Source: an uncultured Chloroflexota bacterium
GTDB lineage: Bacteria > Chloroflexota > Chloroflexia > Thermomicrobiales > UBA6265
Direction: 5' to 3'
DNA: 48,647 nucleotides
Assembly (NCBI GenBank): GCA_937870845.1
Contig: CALMZR010000155.1
Location: 1 to 48,647 of the forward strand
Below are positions 9,011 to 42,219 of the stretch, piece by piece. Below the pieces are notes generated by a model. The model was not told where the DNA came from. It saw nothing but the letters and a program-made list of their open reading frames with translations, and did no database searches. Within the stretch, counting starts at the first letter, position 1; the number at the start of each line of letters is the position of its first letter. Position numbers and translations under genes: made by a program.

Positions 9011-9137
9011 GAGTCGTGAGTCGTGAGTCGTGTGCTAGAACGTCGTTCGTAGGGCAAGCATCGCACTTGGCGGCTGGCCCTTGCGTTTGCCCCAACGCCT
9101 GTCCACTTTTCGACACACGACTCACGACTCACGACTC
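9011..9137. repeat. Paired heptamer array element A (GTGAGTC type)
   Basis: The left arm at 9011-9034 is tandem GAGTCGT heptamers ending GTGTG. The right arm at 9114-9137 is its exact reverse complement over 24 bases. The spacer of 79 bases (9035-9113) encodes nothing obvious. The right arm contains the nusB stop codon TGA (9131-9129). The transcript could fold a 24-base-pair stem between nusB and acpP. It is one of four GTGAGTC elements; the others are near 29791, 30480 and 42104. Confidence 0.9.
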
Positions 9138-29288: not shown

Positions 29289-29894
29289 TCAGGCGCGAGC
29301 CGCGAGCTTCGCGCGCAGCGCGTCGCCCACGACCGCCGGCACGAGCCCGTCGATATCGCCGCCCAGCGCCGCCACCTCCCGGATGAGGCTCGAGCTGATG
29401 AAGGAGTGCCCGGAGGAGGTCATCAGGCAGACCACCTCGATCTCCGGCGCCAGGTGGGCGTTCATGTGCGCCAGCTTGAACTCGTACTCGAAATCCGAGA
29501 CCGCGCGCAACCCACGCACGATCACCCCAGCATTGCGAGCCCGGGCGTAATCTACGGTCAGCCCGGAAAAGCTGTCAACGACGATGTTGCCCTCCGGCGC
29601 GCCGGCCGCTGCCGCCCGCGCCAGCGCGATCCGCTCCTGCGTCGAAAAGAGCGCCCCCGGCTTCTCCTGCCCTTCATAGACGGCGACGATCACCTCGTCG
29701 AACAGCCGGGCCGCCCGCCGCGCCACGTCGACGTGACCCAGCGTAATCGGATCGAAGCTCCCCGGATAGATCGCTCGTCGCGGATTCGAGACGAGTCGTG
29801 AGTCGTGGGTCGTGAATCGTGAGTCGTTGGGCGACAATTCGACCGAGTCGCGCCGACCGGTTTCGCACGGTTTTTCTTCCGACTGACGACTCAC
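29289..29894 (-). CDS. coaD: Phosphopantetheine adenylyltransferase
   Basis: CoaD makes dephospho-CoA from phosphopantetheine and ATP. The core begins at RRAIYPGSFDPITLGHVDVA (29789 down), has the ISSSLIREVAALGGDI motif and ends normally. Family members start at about that point. Here the preceding ~35 codons are heptamer-array sequence, giving [16 protein letters not shown]. In-frame start options are GTG at 29894, which has GGAG 9 bases upstream, and TTG at 29837. No ATG is available near the core. The start therefore cannot be settled from sequence, and the protein may carry an array-encoded N-terminus. Confidence 0.93.
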   Translation of the reverse strand: MSRQSEEKPCETGRRDSVELSPNDSRFTTHDSRLVSNPRRAIYPGSFDPITLGHVDVARRAARLFDEVIVAVYEGQEKPGALFSTQERIALARAAAAGAPEGNIVVDSFSGLTVDYARARNAGVIVRGLRAVSDFEYEFKLAHMNAHLAPEIEVVCLMTSSGHSFISSSLIREVAALGGDIDGLVPAVVGDALRAKLAARA

Positions 29895-29909
29895 GACTCA
29901 CGACTCCGT
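29791..29909. repeat. Paired heptamer array element B (GTGAGTC type)
   Basis: Left arm 29791-29830 and right arm 29880-29909 carry heptamers of GTGAGTC (with GTGGGTC, GTGAATC and GTCAGTC variants) in opposite orientation. The spacer is about 50 bases. The right arm contains the rsmD stop codon; the left arm lies in the coaD 5' region. Pairing is good but not exact: one extra G in the right arm. Confidence 0.85.
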
Positions 29910-30464
29910 CTCGTAGATCGAAAAGCAACTGTCGCCGTGGCAGCGCTCGCGCAAGCGGACCAGGCGCCCGGCCTGCTCGGGCAGCGTCACCCGCGGCGAG
30001 TGCCCGATCGCCAGGATCGTATCCGAGTCTACCAACGGGGAGCGCCCGACCCGCTCCAACGTGGCGACGAGATCCGGATCGGCGTAGGGCGGGTCCATGA
30101 CGATCAGGTCGTACGGCGCGGCATCCGCCGGGCTACGCTCGGCGCGGCCAAGGAAGCTCGATACCGATTCCTGATAGACGCGAGTCACGTTCGCGTAGCG
30201 GGTGTGGGCCAGGTTGGCCCGCACCACCGCCGCCGCCGCCGCGTTCTGCTCCACGAAATCGGCCGTCTCCGCCCCGCGCGACAACGCCTCGATGCCGATG
30301 CCGCCGGTGCCGGCATACAGATCGAGCACCCGCACCGGCTCCACCCCCAGCGAGGCGAGCATCGAGAAAAGCGCGCCCTTGATCTTGTCGGCCATTGGCC
30401 GGGTGAACTTTCCCGCCGGCCCCTTGAGCTGAAACCCTCGTCGTTCGCCAGCAATGACGCGCAT
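29898..30464 (-). CDS. rsmD: 16S rRNA (guanine966-N2)-methyltransferase RsmD
   Basis: The 188-residue methyltransferase has the start MRVIAGERRGFQLKGP, the SAM loop DLYAGTGGIGIEALSRG and the catalytic box VMDPPYADPD. Length is normal from ATG at 30464, and the longer frame upstream is array and leader sequence. It ends YETES followed by TGA at 29900-29898, and that GAGTCGTGA is the first heptamer of element B. Element C lies 16 bases upstream of the start. Confidence 0.95.
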   Translation of the reverse strand: MRVIAGERRGFQLKGPAGKFTRPMADKIKGALFSMLASLGVEPVRVLDLYAGTGGIGIEALSRGAETADFVEQNAAAAAVVRANLAHTRYANVTRVYQESVSSFLGRAERSPADAAPYDLIVMDPPYADPDLVATLERVGRSPLVDSDTILAIGHSPRVTLPEQAGRLVRLRERCHGDSCFSIYETES

Positions 30465-30479
30465 GGGGGGAGTATGACC

Positions 30480-30597
30480 GGAGTCGTGAGTCGTGAGTCG
30501 TGAGTCGAAAGAACGATGTCCGGCGGCGTCGGGGTTGGTCGGGCCGGCCGCATCGCCTTGCGTCTTACGACTTTCGACTTTCGACTCACGACTCGGC
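30480..30597. repeat. Paired heptamer array element C (GTGAGTC type)
   Basis: The left arm 30480-30511 holds four GTGAGTC-like units and ends GTCGAAAG. The right arm 30563-30597 holds GACTTTC and GACTCAC units in reverse orientation. The middle heptamers differ (GTCGAAA instead of GTCGTGA), so pairing is partial. The spacer is about 50 bases. It lies between the 30724 gene and rsmD. Confidence 0.8.
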
Positions 30598-31155: not shown

Positions 31156-31295
31156 GGCAGGGTCCTCCCGGTGGCGCGCAATGACCACCTCGCCCGATGG
31201 TCCCTACCGGTCGGCGCTGCGGCGCTCCGGGACGGAGTAGATCATATGTTCTATTCGGTCAGGGGTCAATCCCCGGCCATGGGTGAAAGGTGTTT

Positions 31296-31361
31296 GGGTG
31301 ATGGGGTGAAAGGGAGGAATCAGGAGACGGGAGCCACAAGCCGACGCTCACCCCATCGCCC
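31296..31361. repeat. Paired heptamer array element E (GGGTGAT/GGGGTGA type)
   Basis: Left arm GGGTGATGGGGTGA (31296-31309) and right arm TCACCCCATCGCCC (31348-31361) pair with one mismatch across a 38-base spacer. A further GGGTGAAAGG unit precedes the left arm and TATCACCCC follows the right. The right side ends 7 bases from the stop of the TetR fragment. Confidence 0.65.
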
Positions 31362-31376
31362 TATCACCCCACAACC

Positions 31377-31784
31377 CTATGAGCCATCGTGCGGCACGAG
31401 CGTCGTCACCAGATGCCGGCGATACGCGACGTGCGCTCCTCCGCTCGGCAGGTGACCCGGCGATTCCCTGACCCGGCGCAACGTCCCCACGTACGCGGCA
31501 TAGGCGAGCAATCCGCGCTGTCGCACCTCGTCGGCCGAGAGTCCGCGGGCGCGAAAGCACGCGATGAGATAGTCGATCCGGCGCTCGGACACCCGCCGCA
31601 GGACCGGCTGCACGATCGGGTCGTCGGCGGCGTCGGAGACCGCCAGGTGGAAAGCATGGCCGAATCGGGTCGCCTCGTCCGCCTCGTCACTGGCGAGCGC
31701 GCGCGCGATCAACTGCTCGAGCCGCTCGCGAGGATCGACGATCCGGTCGAGGTCGGCGATCGCCGCGATCCCGCCCTCCACCAT
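31377..31784 (-). pseudogene. TetR-family regulator lacking the DNA-binding half
   Basis: The frame encodes about 135 residues that match only the ligand-binding part of TetR regulators: VDPRERLEQLIARAL, then SDAADDPIVQPVLRRVSERRIDYLIACFRARGLSADEVRQRGLLAYAAYVG. The helix-turn-helix that should precede it is absent. Only 36 bases separate the fragment from the divergent DUF6463-like gene, so the N-terminal half has been lost. It cannot bind an operator in the normal way. Two ATG/GTG codons near 31784 could still start a short product. Confidence 0.65.
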
Positions 31785-36787: not shown

Positions 36788-36873
36788 GGGTGACGGGTTT
36801 CAGGTGTCGGGTGTCGGGCGGCAGCGTATGGGCGTTGCCTCATCGACTCGCAACCGTCCGTCACCCGTCACCC
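36788..36873. repeat. Paired heptamer array element F (GGGTGAC/GGGTGTC type)
   Basis: Left arm: GGGTGACGGG, then AGGTGTC and GGGTGTC units (36788-36818). Right arm: CCGTCACCCGTCACCC (36858-36873). Eleven bases (36788-36798 with 36863-36873) pair exactly. The spacer is about 40 bases. It lies 17 bases past the recG stop. The units belong to the same GTGAnnn class as the GTGAGTC elements. Confidence 0.7.
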
Positions 36874-40800: not shown

Positions 40801-42120
40801 ATGGACCTGAAGCGCCGCGCCGCCCGCAAACGGCAGAACCAGCCGGAAAGGAAGCGACGGGTGACGCCACGCCGCAACCGCCCGCAACGCGCTCGCCCCA
40901 TGCTCCTGCCGGCGGGCCACGGCGACGAAACCGAGACCGTCATCGAGCGGATCGTGCCCGGCGGCCTCGGGCTCGGCCACGGCGGTGGCCGCACCCTCTT
41001 CGTCTCCCGAGCAGCGCCCGGGGACCGCGTGCGCGTCCGCATCGACCGCGAGCAGGGCCGCGTGGCGCACGCCTCCATCGTCGAGATCCTCGAACCAGGC
41101 CCCGATCGCGTCCCGGAGCCTTACCCCCTCCTCTCTCGCTGCGGGGCCGATTTCCAACACCTGCGGTACGAGGCGCAGCTCGCCGCCAAGTCGGCCATGA
41201 TCGGCGACAGCCTCCGCCGCATTGGCGGCATTCAGCTCGACGACCCGGTGCAGGTCGCCCCATCGCCGCAGACGTGGCGGTACCGGGCCAGAGCCGATTG
41301 GCGGCACGATCCGGCGCAACCGGCGCTTGGCTACCTGGAAACCGGAACTCATCGCGTCATCGATCTGCCAGACGACCCGTTCGTCCTCCCCGCCCTCGGC
41401 GAGCGGTTCGCCCAACTCAGGGAACGAGTCGCCCAGGGACGCCTCCCGGAATGGGCGACGGAGCTGCGCGCTGCCGCCGGCGACGACGGCATCTCGTTCG
41501 CGCCGCCGTTGGAGCTGCCCCAGCCCGTGCCCGTCCACGCCAAAGTCGCCGGCGAGAGGTACGCCTACGACGCCGACTGTTTCTTCCAAATCAACCCATA
41601 CGTCCTCCACGGTCTGTTGGACGACGCGCTCCGCTTCACCCCGGAGCCGGGGTCTTCAGAGTCTGCATCTCGCCTCGCAATCGATCTCTATTGCGGCGTC
41701 GGCCTCTTCACCGTTCCGTTGGCCCGCCGCTTCGAGCGCGTCATCGGGGTCGAGGGCCAGCCCCGCGCCGCCGAGTTCGCGCAGCGCAACGTCGCAACCG
41801 CCGGCTTGCGCAACGCGCAGATCGAGATCGCCTCTGTCGAGCGCTGGCTGGACGGCGCCTACCGCAGCCACGGGCGCGCTCCGTTTGTGCTCCTCGACCC
41901 GCCGCGCGCCGGGCTCCCGGCCAGCGGCCTGCGCGCGCTGCCCCGGCTGCGCGCCACCCGTATTACCTACGTCTCGTGCGACCCCGCCACCCTCGCCCGC
42001 GACCTGAAGGGGCTGCTGGCATCCGGTTACACGTTGCACTCGGTCGCCGGCTTCGACATGTTCCCGCAGACGCACCACGTCGAGATCGTGGCGCATCTTG
42101 AACGAAGTCGTGAGTCGTAG
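40801..42120 (+). CDS. rlmD: 23S rRNA (uracil-5-)-methyltransferase, RumA/RlmD family
   Basis: The 439-residue protein has an Arg-rich N-terminus, a TRAM RNA-binding domain (about 55-110, GGLGLGHGGGRTLFV), the SAM loop AIDLYCGVGLFTVPLARR and the C-terminal SCDPATLARDLKGLL, whose Cys is the RumA nucleophile. It also ends with the FPQTHHVEIVAHL motif. The Fe-S cysteines of E. coli RumA are mostly missing: CGGC is CGAD here. So it may not carry the cluster. The stop TAG follows GAGTCG in heptamer element D, so the last residues Arg-Glu-Ser are array sequence. Confidence 0.9.
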   Translation: MDLKRRAARKRQNQPERKRRVTPRRNRPQRARPMLLPAGHGDETETVIERIVPGGLGLGHGGGRTLFVSRAAPGDRVRVRIDREQGRVAHASIVEILEPGPDRVPEPYPLLSRCGADFQHLRYEAQLAAKSAMIGDSLRRIGGIQLDDPVQVAPSPQTWRYRARADWRHDPAQPALGYLETGTHRVIDLPDDPFVLPALGERFAQLRERVAQGRLPEWATELRAAAGDDGISFAPPLELPQPVPVHAKVAGERYAYDADCFFQINPYVLHGLLDDALRFTPEPGSSESASRLAIDLYCGVGLFTVPLARRFERVIGVEGQPRAAEFAQRNVATAGLRNAQIEIASVERWLDGAYRSHGRAPFVLLDPPRAGLPASGLRALPRLRATRITYVSCDPATLARDLKGLLASGYTLHSVAGFDMFPQTHHVEIVAHLERSRES

Positions 42121-42219
42121 GTCATGAGTCGTGAGCCGGGAAGCTGAGTTGATTCGGAATCGACTCGGGTTCGAAGTTGCTGACTCACGACTCACGGCCT
42201 ACCACTCACGACCCGCTCA
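42104..42219. repeat. Paired heptamer array element D (GTGAGTC type)
   Basis: Left arm 42104-42142 and right arm 42171-42219 carry GTGAGTC-type units in opposite orientation; about 31 positions pair with a few mismatches (for example GTCGTGAGTCGTAGG against its reverse complement). The element spans exactly from the stop region of rlmD to the stop of the convergent gene at 42217, so both stop codons lie in its arms. Confidence 0.85.

Follow-up and report, generated by a model that had tools for sequence, protein, structure and literature searches.

Introduction

An excess of heptamers in bacterial genomes has been noted earlier and attributed to polymerase slippage, and the STRR of cyanobacteria are described as direct tandem heptamers whose definition involves no inverted pairing. 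Convergent pairs of heptamer arrays are known from Xanthomonas, where a G-rich 7-bp unit, GGGAATC, forms 70-75 such pairs per genome in Xcc and Xac, most of them intergenic, near stop codons and at conserved junctions, with varied length and sequence (Rehm et al., 2015; PMC4692102). They are built from one unit per genome and have been interpreted as G-quadruplex formers, and only a few pairs have been reported among the heptamers of Anabaena (PMC4692102). In the Nostoc trnL group I intron, the P6b stem consists of 7-nt repeats and their complement, and of its two unit classes one has been replaced by the other stem-wide several independent times (PMC4476775). A functional precedent comes from REPs, which downregulate translation when they lie within 15 nt of a stop codon and whose stems block exonucleases (PMC12306157).

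The elements described here were found in a 48,647-nt stretch of DNA from an uncultured Chloroflexota bacterium of the Thermomicrobiales (the window, meaning the whole stretch analysed). They are mirror pairs of fixed polarity that start at stop codons in unrelated phyla, their place and shape remaining constant as the repeated word changes.

Paired arrays in the window

The window is contig 155 of the 5.09-Mb, 418-contig assembly of the host genome (G000). A scan for inverted repeats (arms of at least 16 nt, 80% complementary, loop of at most 200 nt) returned six, the longest in the window, and five of these are elements A-E. All five are true inverted pairs of short tandem arrays, with 7-mers in A-D and mixed 7/8-mers in E. 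The initial annotation had described a build of tandem heptamers, spacer and inverted arms for four elements, with related units in two more; this is real in A-D, mixed in E and weak in F, which pairs over 11 bp only (GGGTGACGGGT / ACCCGTCACCC, GGGTGAC units). In A-D, GTGAGTC-type tandem heptamers face a reverse-complement array 48-79 nt away. The arms of A are complementary over 24 exact bases, as had been claimed for them. In B, C and D the paired stretch is 21-29 nt long (20/21, 22/24 and 26/29 matched, respectively), and in E 18 of 21 nt match. The elements and their neighbours are as follows.

Element A, left arm: 9011-9034, GTGAGTC heptamers, on the acyl-carrier-protein side
Element A, spacer: 9035-9113, 79 nt, no similar spacer in a 726-kb sample of the host genome
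Element A, right arm: 9114-9137, includes the nusB stop TGA (9129-9131, minus strand; PF01029)
Element B, coaD-side arm: 29793-29813, the array running on to about 29826
Element B, rsmD-side arm: 29886-29906, includes the rsmD stop TGA (29898-29900, minus strand)
Element C, rsmD-side arm: 30488-30511, the array starting at 30479, 14 nt from the rsmD ATG (30462-30464, minus strand)
Element C, upstream-gene-side arm: 30571-30594, directly after a conserved C-rich-first hairpin (GCCCGGCC...GGCCGGGTTCGTGT)
Element E, left arm: 31289-31309, GGGTGAT/GGGGTGA units, upstream of a minus-strand promoter-like sequence (TTGACC ... CATATGAT)
Element E, right arm: 31348-31368, 8 nt from the stop of a minus-strand gene ending at 31377
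Element F, left arm: 36788-36798, GGGTGACGGGT, 11 bp, weak
Element F, right arm: 36863-36873, 17 nt from the recG stop (minus strand, gene end 36891)
Element D, left arm: 42107-42135, includes the TAG stop (42118-42120) of a tRNA (uracil-5-)methyltransferase-like gene (Pfam)
Element D, right arm: 42184-42212, 4 nt from the stop of a convergent gene ending at 42217

The motif GTGAGTCGTGAGTC occurs 20 times in the window with up to two mismatches, where 0.5 are expected, and none of 100 shuffles reaches 20. Folding z-scores of -8.4 (A), -4.9 (B), -7.1 (C), -7.3 (D), -2.8 (E) and -4.2 (F) agree with the earlier suggestion that the arms can form long RNA stems, and no Rfam covariance model matches the window at gathering thresholds. 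At coaD (29783-29894, minus strand), the ATG present in the relatives G002 and G003 (MNxRRAIYP) is replaced in the window by TCG. The reading frame continues uninterrupted into element B as far as a GTG within the arm, so that coaD would start inside the element unless the assembly is in error.

Survey of the host genome

The survey covered 726 kb (14% of the genome), comprising a repeat-blind sample of 43 contigs taken by number (423 kb), 17 contigs chosen for GTGAGTC matches and the window. Genes were called with a simple home-made codon-usage gene finder (700 genes, 83% coding), which is unreliable for starts and good for stops; thresholds were fixed after the data had been seen, and the assemblies are drafts. 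With up to three mismatches, GAGTCGTGAGTCGTGAGTCG matches the genome 174 times and its reversed control once. Among 83 inverted repeats in the blind 423 kb, 21 have a period of 7 or 8, compared with six in three replicates of a first-order Markov control, or about two per equal length. Sixteen pairs lie at gene junctions in the blind sample, which extrapolates to about 190 per genome. The initial annotation had proposed a repeat class at gene ends, and these counts place such a class far above chance.

The arms measure 15-41 nt and the spacers 16-145 nt in the host sample, and the units are diverse: AGTCGTGA-type and GGGTGAC 7-mers, GGGTGACA 8-mers, GGCTATC, GGCTGCT, GGTGATA/GGTTATA, AGGCGTC and AGTCGGA. 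The rule that all units fit GTGAnnn holds within the window and fails genome-wide, where GGCTATC, GGCTGCT, AGGCGTC and AGTCGGA units occur in the same build. The spacers share no common core, their matches elsewhere in the 726 kb being array remnants or short stretches, and GGAGAA occurs in them five times where 1.2 are expected. A different dispersed inverted repeat, with CCGTGTCATTCCGA-like arm ends and no tandem period, was seen at three host loci (L056 3476-3592, L032 10265-10383 and L082 3787-3891).

In each of three unit families, the arms within one element are more alike than arms of different elements (P = 0.048, 0.0012 and 0.009). Arm mismatches are not biased towards G-U pairing in the sense RNA (14 versus 15), so that selection on the sense-strand RNA acting through G-U pairs leaves no signal and DNA-level copying between arms is likely to be at least part of the story.

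Position relative to stop codons

The distance from the stop codon to the nearer arm falls within -26 to +14 nt for 35 of 39 elements, compared with 19% (length-weighted) or 46% (unweighted) under simulated random insertion into non-divergent junctions, and the gene-end location proposed in the initial annotation is borne out. The TGA of the unit itself often serves as the stop, as in nusB (A) and rsmD (B). In the repeat-blind contigs, elements occupy 13 of 251 tandem, 2 of 55 convergent and 1 of 56 divergent junctions, and some elements lie in divergent junctions or within predicted genes. The typical tandem layout is stop, arm, spacer, arm, Shine-Dalgarno sequence (SD) and start; the sequence besides the element has a median of 25 nt, compared with 77 nt in tandem junctions that carry none. 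Stops in all three frames occur within the first 45 nt of 29 of 92 element ends and of 5 of 585 other gene ends, and as a general reason for the units three-frame stops were rejected because several units contain no stop at all. Tight anchoring to stop codons is also seen at loci of Gemmatimonadetes, Saprospiraceae, G027 and G015.

Enrichment past stop codons, relative rarity between divergent genes, stable stems and a Rho factor encoded in the host genome would all suit bidirectional transcription terminators between genes. However, none of 37 elements has five or more T in the 10 nt past its 3' arm, so that the hairpin is present and the U-tract of an intrinsic terminator is missing, and many elements occupy tight, operon-like junctions in which an SD and start codon follow immediately; at the rsmD/coaD junction a strong terminator would silence coaD. 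In addition, separate conserved hairpins with T-rich tails occur at site C and near F, and these have the C-rich arm first, the polarity opposite to that of the arrays. Termination is in our view a distinctly unlikely role for the arrays.

Orthologous junctions in relatives

The block of genes in the window is syntenic in G002, G003 and G015 and partly so in G001. Relatives have arrays built from other units at junctions B, C and E, usually with both arms changed together. Site C, upstream of rsmD, has paired arrays in five genomes and one arm in a sixth:

G000: GAGTCGTGA/GAAAG pair
G001: GAGTCGGGA pair
G003: GAGTCGAG arm and AGCTATC pair
G015: GAGTCGAGG pair
G031 (another family): GGATTGC pair abutting the rsmD ATG
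G002: single AGCCAAC/T arm

Complementarity between the arms of site C is best within the same genome in four of the five genomes with pairs (19.5, 10.0, 14.0 and 25.0). The exception is G003: its left array is a better match to the G015 right arm, a pattern that would result if one arm of an older pair had disappeared and a new pair had been acquired. Site B has a GTGAGTC pair in the host and an AGCTATC pair in G002, and no array in G003, G001 or G015. At site E, GGGTGAT-type arrays flank both sides in the host and in G003 and a single GACCTCC arm is found in G002, each of them lying upstream of one shared promoter-like sequence; in G003 (C321 12469-12585), another inverted repeat (GTAGGGGCGACGCCGGCGTCGCCCGGGC) is nested between the heptamer arms. 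Hence the GTGAGTC or GTGAnnn unit, by which the initial annotation had defined the family, does not define it, as the unit is swapped between loci and between orthologous junctions and the build stays constant.

Recurrence of position in relatives holds for junctions B, C and E and does not extend to A, D and F, which have no pairs in the relatives compared, so that many elements are young or easily lost. Site D is without an array in G003 and is represented by a single TCGTGAGTCACG in G002 and by one GACGGCCA arm in G001. Every array noticed where the relatives are syntenic with the window is at a junction that is occupied in the window as well (6 of 44 junctions), a comparison that was unplanned and involves genomes of shared ancestry, and for which no P-value is claimed.

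A rival reading is neutral turnover, in which tandem slippage, arm-to-arm template switching and array-to-array conversion both create and maintain the pairs. Selection would then only remove pairs that interfere with coding sequence or ribosome binding, the survivors being left between the stop and the Shine-Dalgarno region. Unique spacers in the host and mismatches without G-U bias fit such neutral turnover, and the one-armed arrays (sites C and E of G002) and the single-unit relic at site D of the same genome look like stages of birth and decay. Yet the anchoring to stop codons exceeds that of random insertion into non-divergent junctions, the same junctions are occupied in several genomes, and the strict polarity is unexplained. 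Neutral turnover is possible as the whole explanation but, on balance, doubtful.

Distribution and polarity in other genomes

One exact GTGAGTC pair pattern matched Thermomicrobiales, other Chloroflexota, Saprospiraceae, another Bacteroidetes MAG, Gemmatimonadetes, Armatimonadetes, a deltaproteobacterial MAG and Iodobacter, and outside Chloroflexota two of them, Gemmatimonadetes and Saprospiraceae, were confirmed to share the stop-codon anchoring. A reversed control pattern revealed a further paired heptamer family in G031, CTGAGTG...CACTCAG, with 32 matches on several contigs. In the Saprospiraceae MAG SJ208 (L230, L244 and L218), paired 8-mer arrays of GTGTTTTG are found together with paired AGGGATGA arrays, and the GTGAGTC arms extend into non-repeat complement (GGCACTTCGCCCAA / TTGGGCGAAG). 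Several spacers of G027 elements look related to each other by eye (ACCGGGCG; CGCCCGGT and ACAAGCGGA stretches), unlike those of the host.

Dispersal, presence or absence that varies at orthologous sites (site D lacks an array in G003 and is nearly empty in G002) and the occurrence of the same GTGAGTC pair in several phyla are features expected of miniature mobile elements of the MITE or REP type, moved in trans by a transposase such as a RAYT-like Y1 enzyme. However, a MITE with a conserved core was rejected because of the unrelated spacers of the host, where the units also differ among elements, and no target duplication was noticed in flanks read by eye. Copies of Y1_Tnp do not track the arrays either: the host has one weak partial match and G002 and G007 have none, while G005, G008 and G024, which are free of arrays or poor in them, have 3-6. 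It is very unlikely that the elements are of this type.

The elements have a fixed polarity. The 5' arm contains more G than C in 42 of 46 elements, so that the G-rich arm comes first, and the order GTGAGTC...GACTCAC was matched 31 times, in 4 of 41 genomes (gap 45-75), as against none for the opposite order GACTCACGACTC..GAGTCGTGAGTC in the 41 genomes (gap 30-60), the different gaps making this a strong control that is imperfectly matched. Templated end addition, in which G-rich heptamers are enzymatically added to each 3' end of a break before the ends are joined, as in telomere-like healing, would put the G-rich word first on both strands and is in keeping with this polarity and with the same unit at many loci and in several phyla. 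It leaves the unique 16-145 nt spacers between the arms unexplained, and no match to the reverse transcriptase family RVT_1 was found in G000, G002, G007, G015 or G027; we regard it as highly improbable. Neither RAYT/Y1 proteins nor reverse transcriptases correlate with the arrays as their writers. The transposase, reverse-transcriptase, MITE and intrinsic-terminator readings are thus all disfavoured.

Gene-end hairpins as a possible function

The build, the G-rich-first polarity, the anchoring to stop codons, the exchange of units at orthologous junctions, the likeness of arms within an element and the lack of a U-tract are properties of the sequences themselves, and a function for them can be proposed by analogy. 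Our tentative preference is for REP-like mRNA hairpins that adjoin stop codons and are homogenised by slippage and template switching. The two arrays of 7- or 8-bp units, inverted around a unique spacer and with the first arm at or containing the stop of the upstream gene, would fold in the mRNA into a long stem directly after the point of translation termination. Such a stem may act in the manner reported for stop-adjacent REPs, as a barrier to 3'-5' exonucleases: following Rho-dependent termination or processing, it would define where the upstream cistron ends on its 3' side and would protect that end. It could also be a brake on the terminating ribosome. Tandem slippage, together with template switching from arm to arm and from array to array in the genome, would rewrite both arms jointly, and it is for this reason that the stem would tolerate replacement of one word by another throughout. 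In addition, the commonest units contain a TGA and so place stops in several reading frames, with the result that the element could be tolerated where coding sequences end.

That place and shape stay constant while the word changes suggests that the gene-end element is kept for its structure and not for its sequence, and arm identity may be kept at the DNA level without RNA selection. The REP analogy is the closest functional model, one in which the 3' end has to be produced by Rho or by processing. By itself it leaves unexplained both the G-rich-first polarity and the sharing of one heptamer across phyla. A broader proposal is that paired short-tandem-repeat arrays anchored to stop codons form a widespread, sequence-independent gene-end class. 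An unrecognised process acting in trans would rewrite both of their arms together and carry identical words from locus to locus in one genome as well as from genome to genome across several phyla; this proposal as a whole we consider unlikely. The elements provide a testable case for gene-end hairpins that are invisible to consensus-based searches, as well as a natural system for how the two arms of an inverted repeat change jointly.

Comparison with known systems

The elements share with STRR the intergenic tandem heptamers and differ from them in that all those described here have an inverted partner array, one-armed arrays being seen in relatives. Like enterobacterial REP/BIME, they are intergenic inverted repeats, some close after stops, that could fold in mRNA, and as candidates for REP-like action they have a stop-proximal position (35/39, as above). 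REP/BIME, however, are consensus palindromes of 20-40 bp, many of which carry a GTAG/CGTC tag and go with a RAYT transposase, whereas the elements here have no consensus across elements, tandem-repeat arms of differing units, long spacers and no Y1 correlate, which also sets them apart from REPINs.

The Xanthomonas GGGAATC pairs and the Nostoc trnL stems are the same kind of object as the elements described here, and because they precede them the view of the initial annotation that the family had not been described is only partly right. The Class II unit of the Nostoc trnL P6b, NNTGAGT (PMC4476775), matches CGTGAGT here, although the stems of Nostoc lie inside one intron and those described here at gene ends. 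As in Xanthomonas, the elements are convergent heptamer pairs, intergenic and near coding-strand stops. In contrast to the single unit and G-quadruplex interpretation of that system, many units occur here, GTGAGTC, GGCTATC and AGGCGTC lack a GGG run, 7- and 8-mers are found together, units are exchanged at orthologous junctions, and the phyla are others. As far as the searched open-access literature goes, four features are new: a single genome holds several units with two different periods, the anchoring to stop codons has been measured, units are exchanged between orthologous gene junctions, and the elements span a range of phyla.
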